A stretch of DNA of 64,000 nt, from assembly GCA_003963075.1 (NCBI GenBank), contig RXJV01000001.1, positions 1 to 64,000 of the forward strand. The letters are read 5' to 3'. A model generated the notes under the pieces. That model was not told the origin of the DNA and did no database searches. It was given only the letters and a program-made list of their open reading frames with translations. Below are positions 956 through 44,695 of the stretch, piece after piece. Each line of letters begins with the position of its first letter. Position 1 is the stretch's first letter. The translations under genes were made by a program, and so were the position numbers. This stretch comes from Burkholderiales bacterium (GTDB lineage Bacteria > Pseudomonadota > Gammaproteobacteria > Burkholderiales > Burkholderiaceae_C).

Positions 956-1885
956 TCATAACGCTTGGAACGACGAGTGGGCCTCGCCGGCCGGGTGGGC
1001 CTGCGAGTCGGCCTGCGAGATGCGGCTGCCGGGTGGGATGCTGCGGGTGAGCCAGACGTTGCCGCCGATCACCGAGCCGCGGCCGAGCGTGATGCGGCCC
1101 AGCACCGTGGCGCCGGCGTAGATGACGACCTCGTCCTCGACGATGGGGTGGCGTGGCTGGCCCTTGACGAGGTGGCCCTCGCCGTCGGTCGGGAAGCTCT
1201 TCGCACCGAGGGTGACGTTCTGGTAGAGCCGCACCCCGCGGCCGAGGATGGCGGTCTCGCCGATCACGACGCCGGTGCCGTGGTCGATGAAACAGCCTTC
1301 GCCGATCTGCGCGCCGGGGTGGATGTCGATGCCGGTGTGGGCATGCGCGAGTTCGGCGATCACGCGGGCGATCAGCGGCACGCCCAGGCGGTAGAGCTCG
1401 TGCGCGAGGCGGTGGCTGATCAGCGCATGCAGCCCGGGGTAGCAGAGCAGCACCTCGTCGACGCTGCGCGCCGCGGGGTCGCCCTGGAAGGCGGCGGTCA
1501 CGTCGCTGTCCAGCAGCTCGCGCACCGCGGGCAGCCGGCGCGCGAAGGCGCCGACCAGGGCGGCGGCGGCGCTCTCCTGCGGCGGCTCGGCACCGCGCAA
1601 CCGGGCATCGAAGCCCAGCTCCAGCAGCACCTGCTGCCGCAGCCGGGTCAGCGCCACGCCCAGGGTATGGCCGACGTAATGGTCTTCGCCCTCGGGCTGA
1701 AGGTCCGGCGGGCCCAGCCGCATCGGGAACAGCGCGCCGGCGAGTTGCTCCACCACGCCGGCCAGCAGCTCACGGGACGGCAGCTCGCGGCCCCCGGTGT
1801 CCAACCGCCGGTGCGCCTCGCGCCAGCGCCGGCGGGCGGCTCGCAGGCCGTCGACGATGTCGCTCAGTTCGTCCGCGCCGGCCAT
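956..1885 (-). CDS. epsC: Serine O-acetyltransferase EpsC/SrpH type
   Basis: This 309-aa enzyme should transfer acetyl from acetyl-CoA to L-serine, giving O-acetylserine for cysteine synthesis. The N-terminal ~150 residues are helical (SATase N-domain). They are followed by a left-handed beta-helix of hexapeptide repeats (GIDIHPGAQIGEGCFIDHG, then TGVVIGETAILGRG), with the catalytic DHGTG motif and the usual NVTLGAKSF loop. I chose the ATG at 1885 because its first base overlaps the rhodanese stop (TGATG) and the product begins at the family's normal N-terminus. The gene lies between a rhodanese and a family 2A encapsulin, the arrangement known from sulfur-starvation encapsulin operons, so it probably serves that compartment or the same sulfur response and not only bulk cysteine synthesis. 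Confidence 0.92.
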   Translation of the reverse strand: MAGADELSDIVDGLRAARRRWREAHRRLDTGGRELPSRELLAGVVEQLAGALFPMRLGPPDLQPEGEDHYVGHTLGVALTRLRQQVLLELGFDARLRGAEPPQESAAAALVGAFARRLPAVRELLDSDVTAAFQGDPAARSVDEVLLCYPGLHALISHRLAHELYRLGVPLIARVIAELAHAHTGIDIHPGAQIGEGCFIDHGTGVVIGETAILGRGVRLYQNVTLGAKSFPTDGEGHLVKGQPRHPIVEDEVVIYAGATVLGRITLGRGSVIGGNVWLTRSIPPGSRISQADSQAHPAGEAHSSFQAL

Positions 1886-2358
1886 CAGTCCTGCACCCAG
1901 GGCAGGCCATGGAAGCGCCAGCCGTTGAAATGGCCGCGCTGCTGGTGGTCGTCGCTGTCGCCCTCGAAGCCTTCCTGGATGTTGAAGACATTCGTCAGGC
2001 CCGCCTTGGTGGCGGCCTCGGCGGCCAGGGCCGAGCGCTTGCCGCTGCGGCACAGCAGCAGCACGGGTTTTTCGTTGCCGGATTTCGGCCCCACCTTGGC
2101 GTCGAGCTCCTTCGCGAAGCGGGGATTGCGGTTCAGCGAGGTGCCGGTGGCCCAGGCCACATGCAGGCTGCCGGGCACATGGCCGACGAAATGGCGTTCT
2201 TCGGCGCTGCGCACATCGACCAGCACGGCCTGGCCGGCTTGCACGAGGTTCCAGGCGTCGCGCGGGCTCAGCGAGCCGGCGTAGGGCAGGTCCGCGGCGC
2301 GCGCGGCCTCACGGGCCTGGGTGACGGGAAGGGGTTCATCGAGAACAGGGCTGCTCAT
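1885..2358 (-). CDS. Rhodanese-domain sulfurtransferase, first gene of the encapsulin operon
   Basis: A 157-aa single-domain rhodanese. The domain spans about residues 25-135 (SLSPRDAWNLVQAGQAVLVDVR ... RHFVGHVPGSLHVAW). The active-site loop CRSGKRS is intact, so this is a probable sulfane-sulfur transferase, unlike the rhodanese-like protein at 3101-3589. There is no signal peptide from the ATG at 2358, so it is cytoplasmic. It overlaps epsC by one base and is the promoter-proximal gene of the rhodanese-epsC-encapsulin set. A rhodanese is a standard member of family 2A encapsulin loci, where the encapsulated cysteine desulfurase generates persulfide that such a protein could accept; that link is inference here. 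Confidence 0.9.
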   Translation of the reverse strand: MSSPVLDEPLPVTQAREAARAADLPYAGSLSPRDAWNLVQAGQAVLVDVRSAEERHFVGHVPGSLHVAWATGTSLNRNPRFAKELDAKVGPKSGNEKPVLLLCRSGKRSALAAEAATKAGLTNVFNIQEGFEGDSDDHQQRGHFNGWRFHGLPWVQD

Positions 2359-2419
2359 GTCGGCTCTCATGCGGAAACCGAGCAAGGCTAGGGCCGCCGC
2401 CATGTGCGGCAAACGAAGC

Positions 2420-2448: not shown

Positions 2449-3123
2449 TTAGAACCCGAGCAGCCGCGGAGACGCGGCCACGGCACCGGCCAAAACAGCC
2501 AGCAGCAGCGACAGACCGGCCCGCCAGGCCGGCACGCCGGCCGCCGCCGCTGCCGGGTCCCCCGGGCGGCGCCCCGTCCACATCGCGCGCAGCAGCGGAT
2601 GGCGCTTCACGAGGCTGTGCAGCGCGATCGCCGCCAGATGCAGCCCGATCCACGCGTAGAGCACTCGCGCCACCCACCGGTGCCAACTCGTGAGCTTGAG
2701 GCTGAGGTCTTCGTCGACAGCGCCCGCCCAGGGGCCGGTGAACGCGATCTCGTCATTGCCGACCAGGCCACTGCCCACCTGAAACAGCAGCAGCACGAGC
2801 ACCGCGACTACCGATAGCGCACCGAGCGGGTTGTGGCCCAAGCCCTGCCAGCGGCCGCTCAGGTAGGCGGCCACCCGTGCCGGCGCCGGCCAGAACTCAG
2901 TGAAGCGCGCATAGCGGCTGCCCCACAGCCCCCAGCTCAGGCGCAGGACCAGCAGAGCCGCGATGCCCTGGCCTGCACGTGCATGCAAGGGCATCCAGAC
3001 GCCGCCGGCCAGGCCGGTGGCGATGGCCGCCATCACCAGCACCACCAAAGACCAATGGAAGGCGCGCAGCAGGCCGTCCCAGACCGGCACGTCCTTGGGT
3101 TCAGGGCTGGCGGGTGGCGACAT
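2449..3123 (-). CDS. Cytochrome b561-family membrane protein
   Basis: A 224-aa integral membrane protein of the Ni/Fe-hydrogenase-type or bacterial cytochrome b561 family. It has four main hydrophobic helices plus a C-terminal one (about residues 25-42, 55-70, 103-122, 148-172, 202-220). Candidate haem-ligand histidines sit in helix 1 (AFHWSL), just before helix 2 (MPLHARAGQG), and in helix 4 (WHRWVARVLYAWIGLHLAAI). The family moves electrons between the quinone pool and periplasmic partners. The ATG at 3123 lies inside the end of the rhodanese-like gene (23-nt overlap), so the two are co-transcribed and probably translationally coupled. The C-terminal tail after helix 4 is Pro/Ala rich. The electron partner is unknown, but the adjacent periplasmic cytochrome block is a natural candidate. 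Confidence 0.88.
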   Translation of the reverse strand: MSPPASPEPKDVPVWDGLLRAFHWSLVVLVMAAIATGLAGGVWMPLHARAGQGIAALLVLRLSWGLWGSRYARFTEFWPAPARVAAYLSGRWQGLGHNPLGALSVVAVLVLLLFQVGSGLVGNDEIAFTGPWAGAVDEDLSLKLTSWHRWVARVLYAWIGLHLAAIALHSLVKRHPLLRAMWTGRRPGDPAAAAAGVPAWRAGLSLLLAVLAGAVAASPRLLGF

Positions 3124-3589
3124 TCGTACCCTCGGTGACGGCCTGGGCGCGCGGCGCCGGCGGCTGGATATGGGCCACGGCCTTGCCGCCCTCCTGCTCG
3201 TAGTCCTCGCTGCCGGTGGCTCCGGCCACCTTGAAGCCCTTCTCGGTGAGGATGTCGCCGGCTCGGCCGGCGCGCTGCGCGTGGTTGGACACGGTCAGGA
3301 TGACCCGGTCGCGCGGCAGGTAGGCCAGGTGCTTCTCGAGTTCGCTGTTTTGGATGTTCAGGTAGACCGGGAAGCTGCCGTACTTGATGAGCTCGTCCGG
3401 GCGGCGCAGGTCCAGCACCAGCAGCTTGTCGGGCTGGGCGAGCAGTGCATCGACCTCGGCAGCCTTCAGGCGTTGGGTCTTGTACTTCCAGTCGGCGGCC
3501 GACACCGCGGGAGCGGCCGCAGTCTGGGCATGAGTCAGGGTGCTGGCGCCGAGCAGGGCGACCAGCGCAAGGGCGCGAAGAGGCTTCAT
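3101..3589 (-). CDS. Periplasmic rhodanese-like protein without catalytic cysteine
   Basis: A 162-aa protein with a Sec signal peptide (MKPLRALALVALLGASTLTHAQ) followed by a rhodanese-fold domain (about residues 45-130: LKAAEVDALLAQPDKLLVLD, then LRRPDEL). At the position of the active-site Cys loop the sequence reads ILTVSNHAQRAGRA, so the Cys is replaced by Ser/Asn and sulfur transfer by the classic mechanism is unlikely. Such domains often act as binding or regulatory modules. I preferred the ATG at 3589, which starts the signal peptide, to in-frame upstream starts. It is the first gene of a two-gene operon with a cytochrome b561 and is transcribed divergently from a TonB receptor across a region rich in CTGTTGC dyads. 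Confidence 0.82.
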   Translation of the reverse strand: MKPLRALALVALLGASTLTHAQTAAAPAVSAADWKYKTQRLKAAEVDALLAQPDKLLVLDLRRPDELIKYGSFPVYLNIQNSELEKHLAYLPRDRVILTVSNHAQRAGRAGDILTEKGFKVAGATGSEDYEQEGGKAVAHIQPPAPRAQAVTEGTNVATRQP

Positions 3590-3901
3590 GGGCAAGTGAA
3601 ATGAAGTGGCGAACGCCTGCTGTTGCGCAGCTTCCGTGCCAGCGCGTTGCCGCTGAATTCGGCCGTTCATCTGGCCCGGCTGCACGCTTCGCAACAGCGC
3701 GCGGTTGCGGCGCTGTTGCGGCGGCAACAGCCGATCGGGTCGGCGGCCCCGACAGCCGGAGCGCAGGGCGGACCCAAGCGCCCGAATCCCGCAAAAACCG
3801 GGCCCGCCAACGAGAAGCGCAGCAGCTTAGACGCCCAGCGTATTGGGCACGCTCCCTGCAAAGCGTGGTGCTGACCTTCACCTCCGCCATCACTTCAACA
3901 C
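3590..3901. promoter_or_regulatory. Divergent control region with four GCTGTTGC/GCAACAGC half-sites
   Basis: This 312-bp gap between the rhodanese-like gene (minus) and the TonB receptor (plus) has no gene I can support. It holds GCTGTTGC at 3619-3626, GCAACAGC at 3691-3698, GCTGTTGC at 3712-3719 and GCAACAGC at 3724-3731. The last pair forms a perfect 8-4-8 dyad (spacer GGCG). The same 8-4-8 geometry recurs upstream of the DUF1549 gene at 6608-6627, which suggests one dimeric regulator for both transcripts. No clear -35/-10 pair is visible. Confidence 0.55.
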
Positions 3902-6601
3902 ATGACGACTCGCTCTCACTTTCGCCTCAAGCCTCTGACCGCCCTGCTCGCCACGTTGGCCGCCGGCAGCAGCCTTGCACAAGACCTGAGCCCGCCCGTC
4001 GCCGAGGCGCAGGCGCTCGGCGCCGTGACCGTGCGCAGCCGCAACCGCATCGAAAAGCTGCAGGACGTGCCGCTGTCGATCTCGGTCGTACAGGGCGCCG
4101 AGCTCGAGCGCCTGGGCACCACCGGCATTGCCGACATCACCAAGCGCGCCGCCAACATCACCTGGAACCAGGGCAACCAGCGCACGAGTTCCATCTCGAT
4201 CCGCGGCATCGGCAAGATCGGCCAGACCGAGGCCCAGGACCCGAGCGTCGGCGTCATCGTCGACGGCGTCTCGTATGCCTACAACGCGCTGACGTCCAGC
4301 TTCGATTTCATCGACATCGACACGATCGAGGTGTCGCGGGGCCCGCAGGGCACCTTGCTGGGCAAGAACACCAGCGTCGGCAACATCATCTTCAACACCC
4401 GCCGGCCGAGCTTCACGCCGTCGGCCGACTATTCGCTGTCCTTCCGCCAGGGCGACGGCGTGCTCGCCTATGCGGCGCTGGGCGGCGGCATCGTCGACAA
4501 CCTGCTGGCCTGGCGCGGCACCTTCTCGGTCAACCGCGGCAATGGCGACATCAAGAACCAGTACAACAAGGACATCACCTATACCAACACCGACCGCGTG
4601 TCCGGCCGCGTGCAGTTCCTGCTGACGCCGCGCGACGACCTCAAGCTGCTCGCGCGCTTCGACGTGCAGCCGCTGGCCGGCGAGGCCACCAACGGCCGCA
4701 ACTACAACTACGACACGCCGGACACCTATGACAGTGGCTACAAGGTCGACAAGTCCAACACCACCTACGCCAAGCTGGCGCGGCGCTGGTTCTCCGACGT
4801 CAAGAGCTACAACGCCGACGCCTACAACAACACCGTCAACAACGACAGCGCCCGGCCGCTGGTGACCGGCAGCCACGGGGCCTCGCTGACGGCGGACTGG
4901 GACATCGGCAGCCACACCATCACGTCCATCACGGCCTACAAGGACTACCACTTCAATGCCTACAACGACGAGGGCACGCCGTTTGACATCAGCCGCAATG
5001 CCGGCGGCTACTGGAACGACTACAAGCAGGTCAGCCAAGAGCTGCGCCTGAGCTCCAAGGTCGGCGGCTTTGTCGACTACCAGGCGGGCCTGTACTTCAT
5101 CCACGTCAATAACGACTCGACCTACAACATCGGCTTTGGCAACGATGCCGGCGCCTGGTACGCCAGCCCGTCGCAGTACACCGCGCTGGATGCGGACGGC
5201 GCCGGCCGCTACCTGCTGCAGAGCTCGCTGGCCAACCTGAAGCTGGCGAGCAACGCGACCACCGGCCACCAGGTCATCGACAACAAGAGCGCGGCCCTGT
5301 TCGGCCAGGCCAACTGGCGCATCGACGACCGCCTGACACTGACCACCGGTGCGCGCGTGACGCGCGAGAACCGCAACAACCTTGGCAGCACCGTGGTGCT
5401 GGACAACGGCAGCGCGGCCGAGTTGAGCCCGTCGAGCTTCAACGGCATCACGCTCGGCGGCTTCGATGCCTACTTCAATCCGAGTGCGGCCACCCGCTAT
5501 GTGCTCAATGGCAATGTCGTCACCGCCAGCACGCCCGGCGCCGTTGCGGTGGCCGCCGGCACGGTGGCCCTGACCACCGACGCCACCAACGCGGCCGGCG
5601 CCCAATTGCAGGCCGACTATGCCGCCAAGAAGTATTTCGGCGCCGCCAACTTCGCCGCGCTGACGCTGGCGCAGAAGAAGCAGTTGTTCTATGCGCAGCA
5701 GATCCGCAAGGCGCGGCTGGGCGTGCTGTTCAACCCCACGCCCGCCCAGCCCTACAAGGCCACCCAGCCCACCGTGACGCTGAGCCCGAGCTACAAGTTC
5801 ACGCCGGACATCACGGGCTACTTCTCGTTCCAGTACGGCGAGAAGGCCGGCATCGCGCAGTTCTACAACGGCGTGTCGGTGCCGGTGAAGGCCGAGAAGA
5901 CCAACAACTTCGAGCTGGGCGTCAAGTCGGCGCTGCTGAACCGCACGCTGATCCTGAATGCCGACATCTTCCTGACCAAGATCCGCGATTACCAGCAGGC
6001 GGTGCGGGCCTACGACGACTACACCACCGGCCAGAACGTGGCGGCCGGCATCACGCCTTCGGTGGCCTACGCGTCGATCAACGGCAACGTGCCCAAGGTG
6101 AAGGTCTCGGGCCTGGAGGTGGACGGGGTCTATGCCGGCATTCCCAACACGACCATCCGCTTCTCCGGCGCCTACAACCGCGCGGTCTACGAGCAGTTCA
6201 CCAATGCGGCCTATCCGGCGGAGCAGGGCGACCTGGTCACCGCGGCCAACCCGTACAAGGACCTGTCCGGCAGCGTGATGCCCGGCGCGCCCAAGCTGAC
6301 CGGCAACCTCGGCGTCGACTACCAGCTGCCGGTGTGGGGCGACAAGGTCTTCCACGCCAGCGCCAATATCGCGGTGTCATCGGGCTTCTACTCCGACACG
6401 GCCTTGTCACGCTATTCCTGGATCGGCAAGAGCGCGATCGTCGACGCGTCCGTCGGCCTGGGCAAGCTCAACAAGACCTTCGACGTCAGCCTCATCGTGA
6501 AGAACCTCTTCAACGACGACACGCCCCTGTCCAAGAGCTGGAGCAGCGTCACGCCGGCGATCCCGCGCAATGTGGGCATCCAGTTCACCGGCCGGCTCTG
6601 A
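3902..6601 (+). CDS. TonB-dependent outer-membrane receptor
   Basis: 899 aa. A signal peptide (MTTRSHFRLKPLTALLATLAAGSSLAQ) precedes a plug domain (about 45-165) with QDVPLSISVVQGAEL, SISIRGIGKIG and VSRGPQGTLLGKNTSVGNI. A long beta-barrel follows and ends in the usual receptor tail (NVGIQFTGRL). The plug start resembles the iron-complex or pesticin-receptor-like class (PF07715), but the substrate cannot be told from sequence. It sits between a rhodanese-like/cytochrome b561 pair and a seven-gene periplasmic operon whose control region carries the same dyads. It is therefore probably the outer-membrane entry point for whatever that operon processes. The ATG at 3902 has only a weak ribosome binding site. 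Confidence 0.93.
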   Translation: MTTRSHFRLKPLTALLATLAAGSSLAQDLSPPVAEAQALGAVTVRSRNRIEKLQDVPLSISVVQGAELERLGTTGIADITKRAANITWNQGNQRTSSISIRGIGKIGQTEAQDPSVGVIVDGVSYAYNALTSSFDFIDIDTIEVSRGPQGTLLGKNTSVGNIIFNTRRPSFTPSADYSLSFRQGDGVLAYAALGGGIVDNLLAWRGTFSVNRGNGDIKNQYNKDITYTNTDRVSGRVQFLLTPRDDLKLLARFDVQPLAGEATNGRNYNYDTPDTYDSGYKVDKSNTTYAKLARRWFSDVKSYNADAYNNTVNNDSARPLVTGSHGASLTADWDIGSHTITSITAYKDYHFNAYNDEGTPFDISRNAGGYWNDYKQVSQELRLSSKVGGFVDYQAGLYFIHVNNDSTYNIGFGNDAGAWYASPSQYTALDADGAGRYLLQSSLANLKLASNATTGHQVIDNKSAALFGQANWRIDDRLTLTTGARVTRENRNNLGSTVVLDNGSAAELSPSSFNGITLGGFDAYFNPSAATRYVLNGNVVTASTPGAVAVAAGTVALTTDATNAAGAQLQADYAAKKYFGAANFAALTLAQKKQLFYAQQIRKARLGVLFNPTPAQPYKATQPTVTLSPSYKFTPDITGYFSFQYGEKAGIAQFYNGVSVPVKAEKTNNFELGVKSALLNRTLILNADIFLTKIRDYQQAVRAYDDYTTGQNVAAGITPSVAYASINGNVPKVKVSGLEVDGVYAGIPNTTIRFSGAYNRAVYEQFTNAAYPAEQGDLVTAANPYKDLSGSVMPGAPKLTGNLGVDYQLPVWGDKVFHASANIAVSSGFYSDTALSRYSWIGKSAIVDASVGLGKLNKTFDVSLIVKNLFNDDTPLSKSWSSVTPAIPRNVGIQFTGRL

Positions 6602-6607
6602 GGCTGC

Positions 6608-6646
6608 GCTGTTGGGTTGCCAACAGTGCTGCAACAGCGCTGTTGG
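6608..6646. promoter_or_regulatory. CTGTTGG-N4-CCAACAG dyad plus back-to-back half-sites upstream of the DUF1549 operon
   Basis: GCTGTTGG at 6608-6615 and CCAACAGT at 6620-6627 are spaced by 4 nt (GTTG). They are followed by GCAACAGC (6631-6638) directly abutting GCTGTTGG (6639-6646). The cluster begins 7 nt after the TonB receptor stop and ends about 100 nt before the DUF1549 start. The first pair could also form an RNA hairpin, but there is no T-run, and the repetition of the same half-site 2.9 kb upstream favours a DNA operator. Confidence 0.5.
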
Positions 6647-6744
6647 CCGTGACGCAGCGGCCGCCCCTTCCGGCCCGTAGCCGTCGCGCTTTTGCTGGCG
6701 CGCTTTTTGCGCTGACCCCGTCAATCACATCCCCGGGAGACCTC

Positions 6745-9231
6745 ATGTCCAAGTTCCGGATCGCCCCGCTCGGCATCGCCGCGCTGCTGGCGACGCTCAC
6801 CACGCTCAGCCCCGCCGAGGACTACGCGCCACCCGGCGGCTTCGTCAAAGGCAGCGAGCGGCCGTGGTCCTACACGCCGCTGAAGACCGACCTGGCCACA
6901 CCCGCCGTCAAGGCCAAGGCCTGGGTGCGCCAGCCGCTGGACGCCTTCGTGCTGGCCAGGCTGGAGGCCGTGGGGCTGCAGCCCTCGCCCGAGGCCGACC
7001 GCCGGACCTTCATCCGCCGCGCCACGCTGGATGCCTGGGGCCTGCTGCCGACGCCGGAGGAGGTCACCGCCTTTGTCAACGACAAATCACCCCAGGCTCA
7101 CGAAAAGCTGGTCGACCGGCTGCTGGCCTCGCCGCGCTACGGCGAGCGCCAGGCGCGCCGCTGGCTGGACCTCTCCCGCTATGCCGACAGCGACGGCTAC
7201 AACACCGACGGCACCCGGCCCAACATCTGGCGCTACCGCGACTACGTCGTCAACGCCTTCAATGCCGACAAGCCCTTCGACCGCTTCGTGAAGGAGCAGA
7301 TCGCCGGTGACGAGCTGTGGCCCGACAGGACCGAGGCGCTGATCGCCACCGGCTTTTTGCGCAATCTGCCGGACGAGATCAATGCCCGCGACCTGAACCT
7401 GAAAAAGCAGGAGGTCGCCAACGACCTGACCGACACGGTGGCGGCCGTCTTCCTCGGCACGACGCTGGGCTGCGCCCAGTGCCACGACCACAAGACCGAG
7501 AAGATCACCCAGCAGGATTACTACCAGTTCCAGGCCTTCTTCGCCAACACCAGCTGGAAGGACGATGTCTCGCCGCTGACTGGCCAGGCCAAGGCCGACT
7601 ACGACGCCCAGCTCGCGAAATGGGAAGCCGCCACCCAGGACATCCGCGCCCAGCGCGATGCCCTGCTCAAGCCGCTGATCGACAAGCTGGAAAGCGACCG
7701 GCTGTCGGGCTTCGTGCCGGCCACGCGCGAGTCCATCATGAAGCCGGCGTCCGAGCGCAATGCCTACGACCGCTGGATCTACCACCGCAACCTCTGGACC
7801 CTGTCCGGCCGCACCCGCAACGCCGAGAACCAGCTCAAGACCAAGGACAAAGAGGGCTATGCCAAGTACGAGGCCCTGACCGCCGAGCTCAAGAAGTTCG
7901 ATCACCTCAAGCCCAAGGACCCGGGCTATGTGTCGACCATCGTCGAGCTGGGCCCGGACGCGCCGCCGACCAAGGTGCTGTTCAAGGGCATCTATGACCG
8001 GCCGCTGCACGAGGTCCAGCCCGGCCTGCCCGCGCTGCTGACCGACCGGACCACGCTGAGCATCCAGCCCACCGCCACCTCGTCCGGCCGCCGCACCGCG
8101 CTGGCCCAGTGGCTGGTGAGCCCCGACAACGGCCTGACCGCACGCGTCTTCGTCAACCGGCAGTGGCAGCAGTTCTTCGGCCGAGGCATCGTCGAGACGG
8201 TGGCCGACTTCGGCAAGACCGGCAGCAAGCCCACGCACCCCGAGCTGCTCGACAGGCTCGCCGCCGACTTCGTCAAGCAAGGCTGGAGCGTGAAGTCGCT
8301 GCACAAGCAGATCCTGCTGTCCAGCACCTACCGCCAGGCCAGCGCGGCGCGCGACCCCGAGGTGGTCAAGAAAGACCCGGACAACAAGCTGCTGTGGGCC
8401 TTCCCGCGCCAGCGTCTGGAGGCCGAGCAGCTGCGCGACTCGCTGCTGGCTGCGGCCGGCGTGCTGGAGGAAAGGCGCGGCGGCCCGGCGGTGTTCCCGC
8501 CCATCCCGCCCAACTTCGACATCGGCGGCCAGCGCAACCGCTGGCAGGTGTCGGAGGACCCGCGCGACCACCACCGCCGCAGTCTCTACGTGTTCGTGCT
8601 GCGCAACTCGCCCTACCCGCTGCTGGAGACCTTCGACTGGGCCAACCCGCAGTCGCCGCATTTCAAGCGCGACGTGACGACGACGGCGCCCCAGGCCCTG
8701 GCCCTGGTCAATAGCGACCTGGTGCTGGGCTGGAGCCAGGCCCTGGCCGGCCGCGTGATCCAGGAGGCCGGTCCGAACGAAGGCGCGCAAATCGAGCGGG
8801 CCTACGAGATCCTGTTCTCGCGCAAGCCCACGGTCCAGGAGAAGGGCAGGCTGGTGGCCTTCCTGGATGCGCAGGAAAAGCTGCAGGCCGAGCAAGCCGC
8901 AACGGTCAAGAAGACGCATCTGCCGGAAGGCTGGGGCGTGGACCCCAAGCTGGCCAAGCAGATCGACGGCTTCTACAAGGCCGCCTACCAGCGCGAGCCC
9001 GACCGCTACGAGCGCCAGGCCCTGCTGGCCCACCTCGACGCGCAGGCCGCCAAGCGCAGGGGCGGCACACCGGGTGAATCGCCTGACGACGGCGGTGGCA
9101 CGCCGGCCGCGGCGGCCAGCACCTCGCCGGTCAAGGGGCCGGGCAAGGGCCCGAGCAAGGCCCGCGCCGCCGCCTTTGTCGACCTGGTCCACACCCTGGT
9201 CAACACCAACGAATTCACCTACCGCTTCTGA
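6745..9231 (+). CDS. DUF1549/DUF1553 protein (planctomycete-type, PSD1-like)
   Basis: 828 aa with an N-terminal signal peptide (about 24 residues, ending LSPAED). DUF1549 follows (about 60-265), with the signatures RRATLDAWGLLPTPEEV, RYGERQARRWLDLSRYADSD and LGCAQCHDHK; the last is a CxxCH at residues 243-247 that could bind haem c or metal. DUF1553 is in the C-terminal half (about 500-760: ALAQWLVSPDNGLTARVFVN, RQRLEAEQLRDSLLAAAGVL). A Pro/Lys/Gly-rich linker lies near residues 775-805. In Planctomycetes these domains are usually fused to a cytochrome c domain (PSCyt1); none is fused here, but three small cytochromes follow in the operon. The start at 6745 has GGGAGA 5 nt upstream. The biochemical function of the family is unknown. 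The gene looks like a transfer from, or shared ancestry with, Planctomycetes or Verrucomicrobia. Confidence 0.9.
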   Translation: MSKFRIAPLGIAALLATLTTLSPAEDYAPPGGFVKGSERPWSYTPLKTDLATPAVKAKAWVRQPLDAFVLARLEAVGLQPSPEADRRTFIRRATLDAWGLLPTPEEVTAFVNDKSPQAHEKLVDRLLASPRYGERQARRWLDLSRYADSDGYNTDGTRPNIWRYRDYVVNAFNADKPFDRFVKEQIAGDELWPDRTEALIATGFLRNLPDEINARDLNLKKQEVANDLTDTVAAVFLGTTLGCAQCHDHKTEKITQQDYYQFQAFFANTSWKDDVSPLTGQAKADYDAQLAKWEAATQDIRAQRDALLKPLIDKLESDRLSGFVPATRESIMKPASERNAYDRWIYHRNLWTLSGRTRNAENQLKTKDKEGYAKYEALTAELKKFDHLKPKDPGYVSTIVELGPDAPPTKVLFKGIYDRPLHEVQPGLPALLTDRTTLSIQPTATSSGRRTALAQWLVSPDNGLTARVFVNRQWQQFFGRGIVETVADFGKTGSKPTHPELLDRLAADFVKQGWSVKSLHKQILLSSTYRQASAARDPEVVKKDPDNKLLWAFPRQRLEAEQLRDSLLAAAGVLEERRGGPAVFPPIPPNFDIGGQRNRWQVSEDPRDHHRRSLYVFVLRNSPYPLLETFDWANPQSPHFKRDVTTTAPQALALVNSDLVLGWSQALAGRVIQEAGPNEGAQIERAYEILFSRKPTVQEKGRLVAFLDAQEKLQAEQAATVKKTHLPEGWGVDPKLAKQIDGFYKAAYQREPDRYERQALLAHLDAQAAKRRGGTPGESPDDGGGTPAAAASTSPVKGPGKGPSKARAAAFVDLVHTLVNTNEFTYRF

Positions 9232-9239
9232 GGTTTGAG

Positions 9240-10676
9240 ATGAGCCACTCCCATCCTTCCCGCCGCCACTTCCTCGGCACCGCGGCCGGCGCCGCGTCCG
9301 CCGGCGCCTTTGGCCTCGGCTCCCTCGGCGGCCTGAACGCCGCGTTCGCGGCCGAGCTGTTCGACCCCACCACGCCGCGCCAGCCCCACCACACGCCCAA
9401 GGCCAAGTCGGTCATCTGGCTGCACATGGCTGGCGCGCCCAGCACGCTGGACCTGTTCGACTACAAGCCCGAGCTGATCAAGCTGGCCGGCACGCCTCTG
9501 CCCGACAGCTTCGGCAAGGACCTCAAGACCGCCACGGACGGTGGCGTCGGCAACCTCTACGCCAGCAAGCGCACCTGGAAGCAGCACGGCGAGAGCGGCG
9601 CCTGGGTGTCGGACCTGCTCCCCCACATCGCCAAGCAGGTGGACGACATCGCCTTCCTGAAGGGCAGCAAGACCGAGGGCAGCACCCACGTCATCGCGTC
9701 GCTGAAGCTGCACACCGCCGGCCTGGTGCCGGGCCGCCCGGCGCTGGGTTCCTGGGTGCAGTACGGCCTGGGCTCGGCCAATCCCGACCTGCCGGCCTTC
9801 GTCGTGCTGCCCACGGGCGTCGGCGCGGCCGGTGGCGGCCGTGGCGCCGTCATCTGGAGCAGCGGCTTCCTGCCGGCCGCGCTGCAGGGCACGCCCTTCC
9901 GCAAGGGCGACTCGCCCATCCTGCACCTGGCCCGGCCTGACGGCATCACCGAGAAGGAGCAGCGCGCCCAGCTGGACCTGCTGCGCAGCCTCAACGGCGA
10001 CCTCTCCGAGCGCTACCCCGGCGACACCGAACTCGTCGCCCGCGCCAAAAGCTATGACCTGGCCTACCGGATGCAGGTGTCGGCGCCCGAAGCGGTGGAC
10101 TTTGCCAAGGAGACCGAGGCCACCAAGAAGGCCTATGGCATCGGCACCAAGGAGACCGATGAATACGGCACCGCGCTGCTGCGCGCGCGCCGCCTGGTGG
10201 AGCGTGGCGTGCGCTTTGTCCATGTCATCTCTGGCGCGCCAGACAACAGCGTAGACAGCTGGGACGCCCACAACAACCTCGAGAAGAACCATGCGGTGAT
10301 GTGCAAGCAGGTGGACCAGCCGGTCGGCGCGCTGCTGGCCGACCTGAAGGCCCGCGGCCTGCTCGACACGACCCTGGTGGTCTGGGCCTCGGAGTTCGGC
10401 CGCACGCCCTATGGCCAGAGCGGCGATGGCCGTGACCACAACCCCTGGGGCTACACCCAGTGGATCGCCGGCGGCGGCATCAAGCCCGGCACCTATGGCA
10501 GCACCGACCCCATCGGCCTGCGCGCCGAGGCCGGCATCGTCGACACCTACGACCTGCAGGCCACGCTGCTGTGGCAGCTCGGGCTCAACCACAAGAAGCT
10601 GGTCTTCGCCCACCAGGGCCGGGCCGAGAAGGCCACGACCGTGTTCGGCGACGTGATCAAGGAGATCCTGGCTTGA
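9240..10676 (+). CDS. DUF1501 Tat-exported protein
   Basis: 478 aa. It begins with a twin-arginine signal (SRRHFLGTAAGAASAGAFGL). The rest is DUF1501, a branch of the sulfatase/alkaline-phosphatase superfamily, recognised by VIWLHMAGAPSTLDLFDYKP near the N-terminus, FVHVISGAPDNSVDSWDAHN, and the C-terminal VVWASEFGRTPYGQSGDGRD and HNPWGYTQWIAGG. Tat export implies a folded, possibly metal-bound protein in the periplasm. It starts 8 nt after the DUF1549/1553 stop; these two families are almost always neighbours, and the pair is the core of the operon. No substrate is established for the family. Confidence 0.92.
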   Translation: MSHSHPSRRHFLGTAAGAASAGAFGLGSLGGLNAAFAAELFDPTTPRQPHHTPKAKSVIWLHMAGAPSTLDLFDYKPELIKLAGTPLPDSFGKDLKTATDGGVGNLYASKRTWKQHGESGAWVSDLLPHIAKQVDDIAFLKGSKTEGSTHVIASLKLHTAGLVPGRPALGSWVQYGLGSANPDLPAFVVLPTGVGAAGGGRGAVIWSSGFLPAALQGTPFRKGDSPILHLARPDGITEKEQRAQLDLLRSLNGDLSERYPGDTELVARAKSYDLAYRMQVSAPEAVDFAKETEATKKAYGIGTKETDEYGTALLRARRLVERGVRFVHVISGAPDNSVDSWDAHNNLEKNHAVMCKQVDQPVGALLADLKARGLLDTTLVVWASEFGRTPYGQSGDGRDHNPWGYTQWIAGGGIKPGTYGSTDPIGLRAEAGIVDTYDLQATLLWQLGLNHKKLVFAHQGRAEKATTVFGDVIKEILA

Positions 10677-11050
10677 GGTGGCGCGCAACAGCCGGCGTCC
10701 TGCTGCCCCTGCTCGTGGCCGGTACGGTGCTCGCAGCGGCAGACCTGAACGCCGACGACATGCGCGAGGCCGAGGAGACCCTGCACAACCTCGACTCGCA
10801 CATCAGCCTGCAGGACCGCAAGGCCCTGGAGGACGCCAAGCTACTGGCCCGCTACTTCCAGCAGGTGGAGGGCCACTTCAGCGCCAAGGCCGATGCGGCG
10901 CGTGGCGTGGAGTTCTCGCGCGCTTCGCGCGCCCATGCGGCGGCCATCGTCACGGCGGTCGAGACGGGCGACTACGACGCCGCCCAGGACCGCCTGACCG
11001 AGCTGACCCGCAGCTGCAAGGCCTGCCACGAGGTCTACAAAAAGAAATGA
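10673..11050 (+). CDS. Small periplasmic c-type cytochrome (C-terminal CxxCH)
   Basis: The 125-aa protein starts at a TTG (10673-10675) that overlaps the DUF1501 stop (TTGA). This is the only start in frame that gives a full signal peptide (MRWRATAGVLLPLLVAGTVL). The mature part is helical and ends SCKACHEVYKKK, so the single haem site CKACH is at the extreme C-terminus, as in class II cytochromes (c', c556). An upstream in-frame start inside DUF1501 is possible but would bury the signal peptide. It is translationally coupled to DUF1501 and is followed, with a 4-nt overlap, by a second small cytochrome. Confidence 0.82.
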   Translation: MRWRATAGVLLPLLVAGTVLAAADLNADDMREAEETLHNLDSHISLQDRKALEDAKLLARYFQQVEGHFSAKADAARGVEFSRASRAHAAAIVTAVETGDYDAAQDRLTELTRSCKACHEVYKKK

Positions 11051-11433
11051 AAGCCCGCCTGCTCGTCCTGCTGCTGCTGGTGTGCGGCGCCACGTCGTTC
11101 TCTGAAGCGGCCACGCGGCTGCAGTTCAGCGTCTGGATGCGGGCCATCGACAACAAGACGGTCAGCGTGCAAAAGCATCTGGCCGCCGGCCGCGAGGCCG
11201 AGGCCCTGGCCGACGCCCGCGCGCTGCAGCAGCTCTATGCCGACATGGCCGCCTTTTTCGAGCGCGACTACCCCGCCGCCGACGCGGTGGCGATCTCGCG
11301 CGACGGCGAGCGGCTGGCGGCCGCCATCCCGGTGCACCTGGCCACGGGCGATGCGGTGGGCGCGGCCCAGGCCGCACGCGCGATCGCGCTCGCCTGCAAC
11401 GACTGTCACGACCCCTACAAACCCTTGCCCTGA
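11047..11433 (+). CDS. Small periplasmic c-type cytochrome (C-terminal CNDCH)
   Basis: 128 aa with a signal peptide (MKARLLVLLLLVCGATSFSEA) and a helical body. One haem-binding motif, CNDCH, lies ten residues from the end (ALACNDCHDPYKPLP), again the class II cytochrome layout. Its ATG overlaps the stop of the preceding cytochrome gene (ATGA), so the two are made together. Sequence similarity to its neighbour is low apart from the layout, so the pair could form a heterodimer or two steps of an electron relay; that is inference. Confidence 0.82.
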   Translation: MKARLLVLLLLVCGATSFSEAATRLQFSVWMRAIDNKTVSVQKHLAAGREAEALADARALQQLYADMAAFFERDYPAADAVAISRDGERLAAAIPVHLATGDAVGAAQAARAIALACNDCHDPYKPLP

Positions 11434-11439
11434 GGTTTC

Positions 11440-12891
11440 ATGAAGACATTGGCTTTCTCCCTGCTCCTGCTCGCGGGTGCCGCCCAGGCCGCACTCAAGC
11501 CGGGCGACACCGCACCGGACTTCCGCACCACCGCGGCCCTCGCGGGCCAGACCGTGGAGGTGCAGCTCCAGGCCGCGCTGGCCAAGGGGCCGGTGGTCGT
11601 CTACTTCTACCCGGCAGCCTTCACCGGCGGCTGCAACCTGCAGGCCCACGAGTTCGCAGAGAACCTGGCGCGCTTCACCGCGGCGGGGGCCAGCATCATC
11701 GGCGTGTCCGGTGACGGCATCGAGCGCCTGCGCGAGTTCTCGGCCGACCCCGAGACCTGTGCCGGCCGGCTGACCGTGGCCTCCGACGCCCAGGGCCAGA
11801 TCGCGCGCGGCTTCGACATCGCCACCACCGCGACCCCGCCCGGCCGCAAGACCACCCAGGGCCAGGACATCACCCACGCCCGTGCCGAGCGCACCACCTT
11901 CGTCATCGGCAAGGACGGCCGCATCGTCGCCACGGTGGGGAGCGTGTCGCCGGTCGAGAACGTGCAGGCCGCGCTGGCCGCCGTGCAGAAGCTCGCCCCT
12001 GAGCCCTCGCGCACCCGGGCCGTGCCGGGTGTGGTGGCCGAGGGCACGCCCATCGTCGTGCTGGGCGAGGGCTTCAAGGGCACCGAGGGCCCGGTGGGCT
12101 TGCCCGATGGCAGCCTGCTCTTCACCGAAACCCAGGACGCCCGTATCACCCGCATCGGCACCGATGGCCGGCTGTCCACCCACCTGCTGAACTCCAACGG
12201 CGCCAACGGCCTGGGCTTCACGCCGGCGGGCGAACTGGTGGCGGTGCAGGTCAACGACACCCGGGTCGGCACGCTGGGCGAGGGCGCCCGCACGCTGGCC
12301 AGCGGCTGGGGCGGCAAGCCCTTCGGCCGGCCCAACGACCTCGTCGTGGCGCGCGACGGCACGGTGTATTTCACCGACTCGGGCCGCAACCCCAACCAGG
12401 CCGCGCCGGCCGGGGCTCCGGAGCCGGCACCGCCCGCGGTCTACCGCCTGCGCGGCACCCAGCTCGACCGCATCGCGGCCGACATCACCCGCCCCAACGG
12501 CATCCAGCTCAGCCCGGACGAGAAGACCCTCTACGTGGCCGACACCGCCGGTGAGCATGTTTTCGCCTATGCGCTGCAGGCCGACGGCAACCTCGGCCCG
12601 CGGCGCGCCTTCGTCAAACTGGCCGGCTACCGGCAGGCGGCCAATGGCAGCTGGAGCAGCGGCGCCGATGGCCTGGCCGTCGATGCGCAGGGCCGCCTCT
12701 ACGTGGCCACCAACGTCGGCGTCGAGGTGTTCGACGCTGCCGCTCAGGCCCTGGGCGTGATCGCCCTGCCCAAGCAGCCGCAGAACCTGGCCTTTGCCGG
12801 CCCGGACAAGAAGCAGCTCTTCATCGTCGGCCGCGGTGCGGCCTGGCGGATCGACACCCTGGCCCAGGGCTATACCGGGCGTGCCAAGTAG
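11440..12891 (+). CDS. Exported fusion of peroxiredoxin and SMP-30/gluconolactonase-like beta-propeller
   Basis: 483 aa. A signal peptide (MKTLAFSLLLLAGAAQA) precedes an AhpC/TSA-BCP type peroxiredoxin domain (about 20-185) with peroxidatic Cys65 in FYPAAFTGGC. A six-bladed SMP-30/lactonase domain follows (about 200-480). The propeller keeps the usual divalent-metal ligands by position: Glu in GTEGPVGLPDG, Asn in FGRPNDLVVARDG, Asn in RPNGIQLSPDE and Asp in GADGLAVDAQG. Both halves therefore look catalytically competent. The N-terminal half resembles the stand-alone exported peroxiredoxin at 47255-47794. The combination suggests peroxide removal physically tied to a lactone or sugar-type hydrolase in the periplasm. 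It lies in a cytochrome-rich operon, 6 nt after the second cytochrome. Confidence 0.88.
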   Translation: MKTLAFSLLLLAGAAQAALKPGDTAPDFRTTAALAGQTVEVQLQAALAKGPVVVYFYPAAFTGGCNLQAHEFAENLARFTAAGASIIGVSGDGIERLREFSADPETCAGRLTVASDAQGQIARGFDIATTATPPGRKTTQGQDITHARAERTTFVIGKDGRIVATVGSVSPVENVQAALAAVQKLAPEPSRTRAVPGVVAEGTPIVVLGEGFKGTEGPVGLPDGSLLFTETQDARITRIGTDGRLSTHLLNSNGANGLGFTPAGELVAVQVNDTRVGTLGEGARTLASGWGGKPFGRPNDLVVARDGTVYFTDSGRNPNQAAPAGAPEPAPPAVYRLRGTQLDRIAADITRPNGIQLSPDEKTLYVADTAGEHVFAYALQADGNLGPRRAFVKLAGYRQAANGSWSSGADGLAVDAQGRLYVATNVGVEVFDAAAQALGVIALPKQPQNLAFAGPDKKQLFIVGRGAAWRIDTLAQGYTGRAK

Positions 12892-12918
12892 TTCCCTTCC
12901 CCTCACCCACTTCACACC

Positions 12919-13374
12919 ATGAAAACCCAACTCATCGCCCTGGCGGCCCTCGTGCTGGCCACCACCGCCCACGCCCAGCAGGCCCCGAAGCCGGAGCAAC
13001 TCATCAAGTGGCGCCAGTCGGCCTACCAGACGATCGCCTGGAACACGGCACGCGTGAAGGCCAACGTCGACGGCAGCTACAACAAGGACGACGCCGCCCG
13101 CGCGGCGGCGGTGATCGCCGCGCTGGCCAACAGCAACCTCGGCGTGCTGTTCCAAGCCGGCACCGACACCGGCAAGGGCTGGCGCGACACCACGGTCAAG
13201 GCCAATCTGTTCACCGATGCGGCCGGCGTGGGCGAGAAGGCCGCCGCCTTCACCAAGGAAGCCAACGAGCTGGCGCGCCTGACACAGGCCGGTGACGTGG
13301 CGGCCGTGAAGGCCCAGCTGGCGGCGCTGCAGAAGACCTGCAAGGCCTGCCACGACGACTACCGGAACAACTGA
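12919..13374 (+). CDS. Cytochrome c'/c556-like protein
   Basis: 151 aa with a signal peptide (MKTQLIALAALVLATTAHAQ), then a four-helix class II cytochrome body starting KPEQLIKWRQSAYQTIAWN and ending with the haem site CKACH (KTCKACHDDYRNN). It is the clearest cytochrome c' family member of the three small cytochromes in this operon. Proteins of this class bind NO or CO or act as soluble electron carriers. It lies 27 nt after the peroxiredoxin/SMP-30 gene and 9 nt before the lectin-like gene. Confidence 0.9.
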   Translation: MKTQLIALAALVLATTAHAQQAPKPEQLIKWRQSAYQTIAWNTARVKANVDGSYNKDDAARAAAVIAALANSNLGVLFQAGTDTGKGWRDTTVKANLFTDAAGVGEKAAAFTKEANELARLTQAGDVAAVKAQLAALQKTCKACHDDYRNN

Positions 13375-13383
13375 GCCCGCGCC

Positions 13384-14061
13384 ATGAAGACTGCTTTCAT
13401 TGCCGCTGCCTGCGCTCTGGCGGGCCTGGCTCAGGCCCAGACCCCGCCGGCCGCTGCGGCGAGCGCGCCGCCCCCGCCGCCGTTCACCTTCTTCGTCACC
13501 AGTGTCGGGGGCGGGCAGGGGGCCAACTACGGCGGGCTGGACGGCGCCGATGCGCATTGCCAGAAGCTGGCCGACGCCGCCGGCACGCCGTTCAAGACCT
13601 GGCGCGCCTACCTCAGCACCCAGGGGCCGAACGCGGTCAACGCGCGCGACCGCATCGGCAAGGGCCCGTGGACCAATGTGCGCGGCCAGGTCATCGCCCG
13701 GGATGTGGGCCATCTGCACGGCGACACGCTGGAGCAGGCCCAGCTCGGCAGCAACCTCACCCGCAACACCGCGCTGACCGAGAAGGGCGAGCGGCCCAAG
13801 GCGGCCGGCGACACGCCCAATGAGCACGACATCATCACCGGCTCGACGCCCGATGGCCGTGCCTTCGCGGACAGCGCCGACAAGACCTGCCGTAACTACA
13901 GCAGCGGCGCCGAAGACGGTTCAGTGCAACTGGGTCACTTCGACCGCACCGGTGGCGGCAATGCCAGCTGGAACTCGGCCCACGCCAGCCGCGGGTGCAG
14001 CCAGGCCAAACTGGTCAGCACCGGCGGTGCGGGCCTGCTGTACTGCTTCGTGGCGCAATAG
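13384..14061 (+). CDS. Secreted lectin-like protein, last gene of the DUF1549/DUF1501 operon
   Basis: 225 aa with a signal peptide (MKTAFIAAACALAGLAQAQ) and a Pro/Ala linker (PPAAAASAPPPPPF). A Cys-containing globular domain follows, with FFVTSVGGGQGANYGGLDGA, CQKLADAAGTPFKTWRAYLS and a C-terminal NASWNSAHASRGCSQAKL ... GLLYCFVAQ. The layout (Gly-rich start, Trp-Arg-Ala-Tyr core, paired Cys, final aromatic strand) resembles C-type-lectin or endostatin-like folds seen in exported bacterial proteins, including DUF1554-like domains; I cannot name the family with certainty. It may bind a polysaccharide or be a surface partner of the operon's redox enzymes. Confidence 0.75.
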   Translation: MKTAFIAAACALAGLAQAQTPPAAAASAPPPPPFTFFVTSVGGGQGANYGGLDGADAHCQKLADAAGTPFKTWRAYLSTQGPNAVNARDRIGKGPWTNVRGQVIARDVGHLHGDTLEQAQLGSNLTRNTALTEKGERPKAAGDTPNEHDIITGSTPDGRAFADSADKTCRNYSSGAEDGSVQLGHFDRTGGGNASWNSAHASRGCSQAKLVSTGGAGLLYCFVAQ

Positions 14062-14177: not shown

Positions 14178-14253
14178 TGGCGCGCCCGGCTGGGATCGAA
14201 CCAGCAACCCCTGCCTTCGGAGGGCAGTACTCTATCCATTGAGCTACGGACGC
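14178..14253 (-). tRNA. tRNA-Arg (anticodon CCG)
   Basis: The 76-nt cloverleaf read on the minus strand has acceptor arms GCGTCCG and CGGGCGC (one G-U pair), D-arm GCTC-AATGGAT-AGAG, anticodon stem CTGCC/GGCAG with loop CTCCGAA (anticodon CCG), T-arm containing GGTTCGATCCC, discriminator G and encoded CCA. A TAGAAT-like -10 lies about 11 bp upstream (14264-14269), and an intrinsic terminator follows. It decodes CGG. Confidence 0.97.
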
Positions 14254-30638: not shown

Positions 30639-31652
30639 TCAGTCCGCCAGCCAGTGCGGCGCGCTGGATGGCAGGGCCAGTTCGAGCGCGGTGCCGGGGG
30701 CCGGCGGGGCGCTGCCGGGGGGCAGGTTCAGCACCAGGGCCTGGTCGCCCCAGGCGCGCAGCTCGACGCTGGTGTGCTGCAGGCCCGGGTGGGCGGCCAC
30801 GACGCGGGCGGTGAAGCGCCAGGCGTCGGCCGGCGTGTCGGGCGTGGCGGGCTGCAGCGCGGCCAGCGGGGCGATCCAGCTGCCCTGTTCGCGCTGCCAG
30901 GGCGCCGGCAGCCGGCGCGCGTCGAGCCGGTTGAAGGCGCCGAGGAAGTCGGCCACGCGCAGCGTGCGCGGGCGCTGCCACAGCTCGGCCGGCGGGCTGC
31001 ACTGCTCGATGCGGCCGTCGAACATCACCGCCACCTGGTCGGCCAGCTCGAAGGCCTCGTCGCGGTCGTGGGTGACGAGCACGCAGCTCTGGCCCAGCTC
31101 GCGCTGCAGCTGCCGGAACGAGCGCCGCAGCGGGATGCGGAAGGATTCGTCCAGCGCCGAGAAGGGCTCGTCCAGCAGCAGCAGCGACGGGTGGGGCGCC
31201 AGCGCCCGCGCCAGGGCCACACGCTGGCGCTGGCCGCCGGAGAGCTGGCCGGGGCGCTTGGCGGCGTGCTCGGCCAGGCCGATGAGCTGCAGCAGCTCGG
31301 CGATGCGGGCCTGCTGCCGGGCCGGGCTGTCGCCCCGGGCCTGTAGGCCGAAGCCGATGTTGTCGGCCACGCTGAGGTTGGGGAAGAGGGCATAGCTCTG
31401 GAACACGACGCCGATGCCGCGCTGCGCGGTGGGCAGGGCGGTCACGTCGCGGTCGTCGACCTGCACCCGGCCTGCGTCGAGGGGCTGCAGGCCGGCGATG
31501 GCGCGCAGCAGCGTGGTCTTGCCGCAGCCCGAGCCGCCGAGCAGGGCCAGCACCTGGCCGCGCGGCAGCTCGACATCGACGCCTTGCAGGATGGGCCGGC
31601 CGCCGAGGCTCAGCCGGGCTTGTTGGACGAGGAGCGCGCTGGGGTTCGCCAT
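30639..31652 (-). CDS. ABC importer ATPase (Fe3+/spermidine-type) of the phosphoester operon
   Basis: 337 aa. The nucleotide-binding domain has Walker A GGSGCGKTT, Q-loop FQSYALFPNL, signature LSGGQRQR, Walker B LLLLDEPF and the switch His (VLVTHDRDEA). A C-terminal TOBE-like extension (about 250-337) places it in the importer group with iron, spermidine and aminoethylphosphonate ATPases. It is the last gene of a seven-gene minus-strand operon and overlaps the preceding permease gene by 43 nt. Confidence 0.93.
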   Translation of the reverse strand: MANPSALLVQQARLSLGGRPILQGVDVELPRGQVLALLGGSGCGKTTLLRAIAGLQPLDAGRVQVDDRDVTALPTAQRGIGVVFQSYALFPNLSVADNIGFGLQARGDSPARQQARIAELLQLIGLAEHAAKRPGQLSGGQRQRVALARALAPHPSLLLLDEPFSALDESFRIPLRRSFRQLQRELGQSCVLVTHDRDEAFELADQVAVMFDGRIEQCSPPAELWQRPRTLRVADFLGAFNRLDARRLPAPWQREQGSWIAPLAALQPATPDTPADAWRFTARVVAAHPGLQHTSVELRAWGDQALVLNLPPGSAPPAPGTALELALPSSAPHWLAD

Positions 31653-35086: not shown

Positions 35087-35093
35087 GCGGGGC

Positions 35094-38488: not shown

Positions 38489-38574
38489 GGGTTTGAGGCG
38501 GCGTACGCGGTTGAGGCTTGGGGGCGCCAGCCCCCGGGAAGACCCGAGGTCGGCGGGATAACGGCCTGCAATGT

Positions 38575-38640
38575 CACAAAAATCCACGACAGTTCTGCGA
38601 CAAAACCGTTGCCGTGAACTTAAATCCACAAAAAACCACA
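38575..38640. promoter_or_regulatory. Repeated TTTGTGG-type sites between TonB operon and DeoR gene
   Basis: The AT-rich patch in the 234-bp divergent gap contains CACAAAAATCCAC (38575-38587), GCGACAAAACC (38597-38607) and CACAAAAAACCACA (38627-38640). Read on the minus strand these are TTTGTGG/TTGTCG units. Direct-repeat operators of this look are common for DeoR/GlpR-type repressors, and the regulator is encoded next door. The assignment is inference from position and repetition. Confidence 0.45.
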
Positions 38641-38722
38641 AGAACACTCGCATTCACACGATCGCCACACAGGGCGGGCCCAATGGCCCCCTGCCACGCT
38701 CATCGCTCCTTCCTTACCGCAC

Positions 38723-44563: not shown

Positions 44564-44575
44564 GACCACCCCCTT

Positions 44576-44602
44576 CCGGCTTCGCCGGCCCCCTCAAGGG
44601 GG
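44576..44602 (+). promoter_or_regulatory. Double hairpin between bufA and bufBC
   Basis: CCGGC-TTC-GCCGG (44576-44588) is followed immediately by CCCCC-TCAA-GGGGG (44589-44602). There is no T-run, so this is more likely an mRNA-stabilising or attenuating structure than a complete terminator. It lies 13 nt after the bufA stop. Confidence 0.5.
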
Positions 44603-44695
44603 CGCACTGAGCGGCCTGGCAAAGCCAGTTCCGCCAGTGCCGCTGGAGGGCGTGCGAGCCTGCGGCCGCACGTCTTCTACTTTTTTCTGTCGTCT

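Follow-up and report, generated by a model that had tools for sequence, protein, structure and literature searches.

As far as is known, sulfur scavenging depends chiefly on sulfatases and on flavin and iron oxygenases. The described systems that come closest to the gene block considered here are the adjoining PSCyt2-PSD1 (DUF1549-DUF1553) and DUF1501 genes of Planctomycetes, Verrucomicrobia and Acidobacteria, the type I (formylglycine) sulfatases (PF00884), the SfnR-type sigma-54 control of sulfate starvation in Pseudomonas, and the family 2A encapsulins with a cysteine desulfurase cargo (PMC8346489). We analyzed a window of 64,000 nucleotides from a Burkholderiales bacterium (assembly GCA_003963075.1, contig RXJV01000001.1, positions 1 to 64,000), in which a block of ten genes places the same two families, PSCyt2-PSD1 and DUF1501, side by side, and compared this block with its relatives by profile, tblastn, fold and promoter searches. 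The CxxCH motif of PSCyt2 and its neighboring residues were identical to those of the described pairs, whereas the block belonged to its own proteobacterial clade, had a TonB receptor, cytochromes c′, a cytochrome b561 and a rhodanese-like protein as partners, and carried no fused PSCyt1 domain.

We found a recurring unit with sigma-54-type promoters and palindromes, an island of sulfur genes around it in many carriers, an invariant CxxCH, and a resemblance of DUF1501 to the sulfatase superfamily. From these features we infer, at slightly better than even confidence, induction by sulfur limitation, an organosulfur substrate and heme-dependent chemistry; the block would be a TonB-fed periplasmic system for that compound. 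A more specific proposal, which we put forward tentatively and with clearly less confidence, is that PSCyt2-PSD1 and DUF1501 form a new class of TonB-fed, heme-c-dependent periplasmic enzymes that free organic sulfur, the copies in Planctomycetes, Verrucomicrobia and Acidobacteria being relatives that act on other, perhaps sulfated, substrates. The block would be a variant of the known sulfur-scavenging systems, built from families that are named but have no assigned function, and its enzyme core has a fair chance of being new. Among the papers listed in searches of the open-access literature (subscription journals lay outside this scope), none described this gene set or linked these families to sulfur; only three open-access papers name DUF1549, PF07583, PSCyt2, PF07587 or PF07394, and ten name DUF1501. 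The block is compact and regulated and occurs in Proteobacteria that can be cultured, which makes the question of function simple to test; if the sulfur reading is right, it adds a heme-based route to sulfur scavenging.

A recurring block with a stable core and more variable members

The block consists of three transcription units: the rhodanese-like and b561 genes, the TonB receptor gene, and the genes from PSCyt2 to the DUF1554-like protein (Table 1). An initial annotation of this DNA had proposed that the ten genes make up one periplasmic oxidation and uptake system. On re-examination of the window, all ten were present at the positions it gave, and its succession of seven plus-strand genes (6745-14061) was borne out, as were the overlapping junctions: the TTG start of the cytochrome gene at 10673 overlaps the DUF1501 stop, and the ATG of the cytochrome gene at 11047 overlaps the preceding stop.

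Within the genus, 6 of 20 genomes carry PSCyt2. The rhodanese-like gene occurs in exactly these six, and the third cytochrome was found in them as well, plus one weak extra match (33%). PF07583 was found in 16 of 299 genomes of the family (15 above the cutoff) and in 7 of 399 at the order level, the window's own genome counted; the PSCyt2 carriers named here are among the matches listed and represent a lower bound. We compared 31 proteobacterial loci, every one of them entered via PSCyt2 (locus L049, Paucibacter sp. B2R-40, was excluded as probably the same genome as G313). DUF1501 was present in all 31, the first cytochrome in 28, the peroxiredoxin in 27, the third cytochrome in 25 and the rhodanese-like protein in 23, followed by the TonB receptor (21), b561 (18), and the second cytochrome and DUF1554-like protein (13 each); contig ends cut two of the loci (G011 and G309) within the block. 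In Methylosinus, eight core genes stand in a row on one strand, with the rhodanese-like and b561 genes among them.

Because the set recurs in relatives, the block is more than a chance assembly, and we conclude that it is a unit whose stable core is accompanied by more variable members. The joint presence of three of its genes in six genomes of the genus, the Methylosinus gene row and a single promoter type ahead of all three transcription units favor the earlier claim that the set acts as one system. Free separation of the genes in relatives would have spoken against that claim; the comparison did not refute it, although the TonB receptor and b561 were missing more often than PSCyt2, DUF1501 or the first cytochrome. 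The peroxiredoxin-SMP-30 fusion was rejected as a defining trait, being fused in just 6 of the 27 loci with a match.

A predicted heme site and the sulfatase-superfamily fold

The window PSCyt2 has only two cysteines, both within CAQCH (residues 243-247), and C243, C246, H247, H249 and K250 were identical in 40 of 40 PSCyt2 sequences from several phyla. Because this CxxCH lies in an exported protein, it points to a covalent c-type heme on PSCyt2, with attachment predicted from the motif and the export signal. The initial annotation had overlooked this CxxCH and held that heme is supplied only in trans. Its idea of one system is supported, whereas an exclusively in-trans heme supply, like its "Planctomycete-type" label (see below), is not. 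It was right that the three small cytochromes each carry one C-terminal CxxCH. All three matched PF01322 (cytochrome c′), two above the cutoff and the middle one below.

A structure model of PSCyt2-PSD1 (predicted local distance difference test score, pLDDT, 87.7; predicted template modeling score, pTM, 0.88) was mainly helical. A fold search of this model against the PDB returned no match at an expect value (E) of ≤0.001 (best E 0.38); its match to SfmD (E 0.8, probability 0.11) carries no weight, and the best matches in a profile search of PDB sequences with query A3 were b562-fusion constructs (E 0.025). In four genomes (G085, G072, G051 and G172), the flanking DNA that was fetched contains CcmB or CcmF/NrfE-type (cytochrome c maturation) genes; loci with such genes flanking the block were L035, L038, L140 and L142.

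The DUF1501 model (pLDDT 85.5, pTM 0.87) gave 490 PDB matches with Foldseek, 87 of them at E ≤0.001. The first were type I sulfatases (best E 9e-7), and the best 50 of the 490 were nearly all sulfatases and related phosphatase-superfamily enzymes, although template modeling scores were low, at about 0.3 to 0.45. In a profile comparison (hhalign) with three sulfatases of the sulfur islands described below, 100 columns were aligned (E 1.7e-6), with TLVVWASEFG opposite TIVVFTSDNG. The single cysteine of the window DUF1501 (C355) lies outside any conserved column, and a classical formylglycine sulfatase was rejected since the cysteine of C/S-x-[PA]-x-R is missing (the serine-type motif was not looked at). 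The rhodanese-like protein likewise cannot be a classical sulfurtransferase, because none of the 23 matched stretches (the window and 22 other loci) contains a cysteine, the loop reading T[VL]SN[HR]A; this assignment was also rejected.

The block might instead be a periplasmic redox or peroxide-defense module, in which the cytochromes c′, the peroxiredoxin and b561 would guard the envelope or take part in respiration, with the receptor supplying heme or a metal. The constancy of the peroxiredoxin and the first cytochrome c′ and the maturation genes in the flanks of four genomes fit such a module, but it leaves both the sulfur neighbors and the sulfatase-superfamily fold of DUF1501 unexplained, and we consider it quite improbable.

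Sigma-54-type promoters and the sulfur neighborhood

Sigma-54-type sites were counted when they scored at least 10 of 12 against the consensus within 350 bp upstream of a gene, using matches above 80 bits from 27 sources with at least 300 bp of upstream DNA (upstream stretches were measured from the tblastn match and can contain some coding DNA; L025 was left out). Such sites were present ahead of the TonB receptor gene at 12 of 17 loci, ahead of PSCyt2 at 22 of 28 and ahead of the rhodanese-like gene at 17 of 20, or 51 of 65 heads in all, compared with 9 of 213 control genes and an average of 0.2 to 0.3 per set in shuffled sequences. Among the neighbors, exbB had a site in 2 of 10 cases and the sulfate-binding protein gene in 1 of 8.

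The palindrome TGTTG-N6-CAACA, probably an activator site, occurs twice in the window (0.02 expected), in both intergenic stretches that precede block promoters, and the whole genome (4.65 Mb) contains only three copies. The third (G000:C23:35879-35894; L150 1501-1516) is flanked by CBS-domain and O-acetylhomoserine-sulfhydrylase-like genes, as assigned by eye. Genomes G011, G002, G003 and G010 have the palindrome in the same two intergenic stretches, Zoogloea has it once, between the receptor and PSCyt2, and G313 once, beside the activator gene. At most of the remaining loci the exact form is absent. The sigma-54 activator of the window genome begins its PF00158 domain at residue 24 and has no sensor domain. 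In 9 of 13 genomes, the nearest relative of this activator is encoded on the same contig as PSCyt2, no more than about 52 kb away. This arrangement resembles SfnR-type control, which likewise combines sigma-54 sites with an activator lacking a sensor domain near sulfur genes, but the targets here are the heme/DUF block and the TonB receptor rather than flavin monooxygenases.

The genes at 1-2370, to the left of b561, form a family 2A encapsulin (sulfur) operon that the initial annotation had overlooked; the neighborhood thus points to sulfur, a role absent from that annotation. Serine acetyltransferases and rhodaneses are the most enriched companions of family 2A encapsulins according to PMC8346489, and by that description the neighboring operon is a member with all its parts: shell, cysteine desulfurase cargo, EpsC-type serine acetyltransferase and rhodanese. 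It adjoins the block here but is missing near many of the block's other copies. The last residues of the window's shell gene open contig C138 of the same genome, which encodes, above cutoff, the encapsulin cargo cysteine desulfurase, MetY, a sulfatase, ExbB and two ExbD proteins, together with the sigma-54 activator (PF00158); taurine-dioxygenase-like, amino-acid ATP-binding cassette (ABC) binding protein and cysteine/cystathionine-synthase-like genes fell below cutoff. TonB of the islands, C138 included, was named by eye and has no Pfam match.

Neighbor statistics were compiled for 18 PSCyt2 genomes of 11 genera at a distance of 25 kb, with expectations from rounded genome sizes. An encapsulin shell gene lay within this distance of PSCyt2 in 6 of the 18 genomes (0.10 expected), a sulfate-binding protein gene in 8 (0.31 expected) and one or the other in 12 (0.40 expected), compared with none (0.26 expected) for the phosphate control PstS. 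The six misses were G007, G010, G051, G061, G072 and G084, of which G051 and G072 have a marker within 39 kb. Left out of these counts were the shell fragments G000:C138 and G011:C45, the sub-cutoff sulfate-binding protein G003:C12, the sub-cutoff PstS of G244, genome G275 (sub-cutoff PF07583), and the SsuA family, whose matches were too numerous for statistics. Sulfatases of the C138 type occurred in the fetched DNA of 5 of the 18 genomes (L149, L146, L041, L140 and L135), and in G085 CysW, CysA and sulfate-binding protein genes adjoin the encapsulin operon. Outside the family, Methylosinus has shell and cargo genes just upstream of the block, G371 has the activator, rhodanese, EpsC, shell and cargo near it, and G669 has a sulfate-binding protein and sulfonate-type ABC genes; these three count as independent cases. 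In total, 17 of the 31 loci had a shell, sulfate-binding protein or SsuC-type permease gene in the fetched DNA.

A rival explanation of the block is carbon acquisition, in which the receptor would import an aromatic compound or an oligosaccharide for oxidation or cleavage by PSCyt2 and DUF1501, the lactonase and dienelactone hydrolase would act next, and the sulfur neighbors would be incidental. Enzymes of this type are present, namely the SMP-30 domain and, in 9 of 31 loci, a YghX-type dienelactone hydrolase, and PMC5615132 suggests that PSCyt genes act on carbohydrates in Verrucomicrobia. We nevertheless regard this explanation as unlikely, given that 12 of 18 genomes have a sulfur marker no more than 25 kb away and that genome G007 keeps the peroxiredoxin without the SMP-30 part; moreover, reading translations by eye brought up no glycoside hydrolase, no systematic search having been made.

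Under the sulfur-scavenging reading, low sulfate would lead the island's sensorless sigma-54 activator to switch the block on. The TonB receptor, powered by the island's ExbB-ExbD-ExbD-TonB, would import an organosulfur compound to the periplasm, where PSCyt2-PSD1, with its own c-type heme, and DUF1501, with a sulfatase-superfamily fold and no formylglycine motif, may act on it. Electrons could pass between these enzymes and the quinone pool, in either direction, by way of the cytochromes c′ and b561, while the peroxiredoxin might clear peroxide and the lactonase-like protein, joined in some relatives by the dienelactone hydrolase, might handle the carbon part. Released sulfite or sulfate would enter through the sulfate/sulfonate transporters present in many islands, and the imported sulfur would be made into cysteine or stored via the encapsulin system; PMC8049743 reports that family 2A shell and cargo rise under sulfur starvation in S. 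elongatus.

Several observations weigh against this reading. PMC8049743 also reports no growth defect for S. elongatus shell and cargo knockouts. Sigma-54-type sites were absent ahead of the shell (0 of 7), active-rhodanese (0 of 7) and activator genes (0 of 15), and contig C138 had none scoring at least 10; because these neighbors lack such sites, shared regulation is not required, and the block and its sulfur neighbors need not be co-regulated. The main weakness is that 14 of the 31 loci, including Methylocapsa, Methylobacter, Zoogloea, G691, G385, G339 and G614, had no shell, sulfate-binding protein or SsuC-type permease gene in the fetched DNA (8 to 60 kb, so that absence is weak), which lowered our confidence in a sulfur role. 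Outside Proteobacteria, sulfatases were near just 6 of 73 PSCyt2/DUF1501 pairs (two queries). Finally, related genomes are not independent.

Lineages and further features of the window

In a DUF1501 tree of 66 proteins, which took in 30 of the 73 non-proteobacterial loci and whose bootstrap was not settled, the 31 proteobacterial rows formed one clade (100/100) split into two halves. The window's DUF1501 falls in one half; in the other, loci commonly have an additional diheme cytochrome (counted in 14 of the 31 loci overall), and the YghX-type hydrolase is present. The clade is mainly burkholderial, and because Methylocapsa, Methylosinus and Methylobacter fall inside this second half, the tree suggests transfer of the block between classes. 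The window cytochromes had no tblastn match in the 73 other loci (mostly of Planctomycetes, Verrucomicrobia and Acidobacteria). Given this result and the separate proteobacterial clade, the label "Planctomycete-type" proved loose.

The nesting of methanotrophs in a mainly burkholderial clade, together with the patchy spread among genomes of the family and order, would also be expected if the block were a mobile accessory module that landed by chance in a genomic region where several sulfur genes are found in this order and had no sulfur role. Since the sulfur neighbors differ in kind between families and in Methylosinus, we judge such hitch-hiking to be very improbable.

Both block lineages occur in one genome at L034, L045 and G114 (L030 and L042), lying side by side in G313 and Zoogloea. 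The three methanotroph copies (L043, Methylocapsa; L044, Methylobacter; L046, Methylosinus) come from two classes. Records titled Klebsiella pneumoniae and Akkermansia muciniphila metagenome-assembled genome (MAG) (L101, L062, L071 and L072) may be mislabeled, by PSCyt2 kinship.

The features of the block and its left flank are collected in Table 1. The twin-arginine translocation (Tat) motif of DUF1501 and the signal peptides were assigned by eye; Pfam TAT_signal scored 16.6 bits, below its cutoff of 22.7.

Table 1. Positions of genes, sigma-54-type sites and palindromes in the 64,000-nucleotide window
Feature	Position	Strand	Evidence
Family 2A encapsulin shell gene, cut by contig end	1..862	-	G000:C131:2-838, 507.8 bits, cutoff 380
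Serine O-acetyltransferase, EpsC type	956..1885	-	NF041874 163.7 bits, cutoff 150, longer reading 956-2053; hexapeptide repeats
Rhodanese with active-site cysteine (CRSGKRS)	1885..2370	-	PF00581 63.3 bits, cutoff 22.2
Cytochrome b561-type membrane protein	2449..3123	-	PF01292 68.9 bits, cutoff 30.1
Exported rhodanese-fold protein without any cysteine	3101..3589	-	PF00581 18.8 bits, below cutoff 22.2
Sigma-54-type -24/-12 site ahead of rhodanese-like gene	3626..3641	-	10 of 12
Palindrome TGTTG-N6-CAACA, likely activator site	3714..3729	.	motif search
Sigma-54-type site ahead of TonB receptor	3845..3860	+	10 of 12
TonB-dependent receptor	3902..6601	+	PF00593 90.2, PF07715 59.9 bits, both above cutoff
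Palindrome TGTTG-N6-CAACA	6610..6625	.	motif search
Palindrome CAACAGCGCTGTTG, same half-sites as TGTTG-N6-CAACA	6632..6645	.	motif search
Sigma-54-type site ahead of PSCyt2-PSD1	6696..6711	+	10 of 12
PSCyt2-PSD1 (DUF1549-DUF1553) with CxxCH	6745..9231	+	281.6 and 314.7 bits, both above cutoff
DUF1501, sulfatase/phosphatase-superfamily fold, Tat-type start	9240..10676	+	439.4 bits; fold match
First cytochrome c′ type, TTG start	10673..11050	+	PF01322 28.7 bits, cutoff 26.5; CKACH
Second (middle) cytochrome c′ type	11047..11433	+	PF01322 19.1 bits, below cutoff 26.5; CNDCH
Peroxiredoxin-SMP-30/gluconolactonase-like fusion	11440..12891	+	PF00578 85.4, PF08450 128.8 bits, both above cutoff
Third cytochrome c′	12919..13374	+	PF01322 102.3 bits, cutoff 26.5; CKACH
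DUF1554/endostatin-like exported protein	13384..14061	+	PF07588 15.3 bits, below cutoff 27.5

A tRNA-Arg gene (14178-14253) lies just past the DUF1554-like gene. Elsewhere in the window, positions 30942-38653 may form a transport cluster, assigned by eye: one gene matches an ABC-type ATPase, and the others encode a permease, a binding protein, a phosphodiesterase-like protein and a large exported protein. Bufferin-type metallophore genes occupy positions 44306-46305 and encode a BufA2 precursor (NF050166 at 90 bits against a cutoff of 60), a DUF2063 protein and an enzyme of the MbnB/TglH/ChrH type; another gene for an exported peroxiredoxin-like protein is located at 47177-47794. In a Cellvibrionaceae MAG (L047), a TatA/B/E-family gene (7258-7503; 42.9 bits, cutoff 21) is found three genes downstream of the block.

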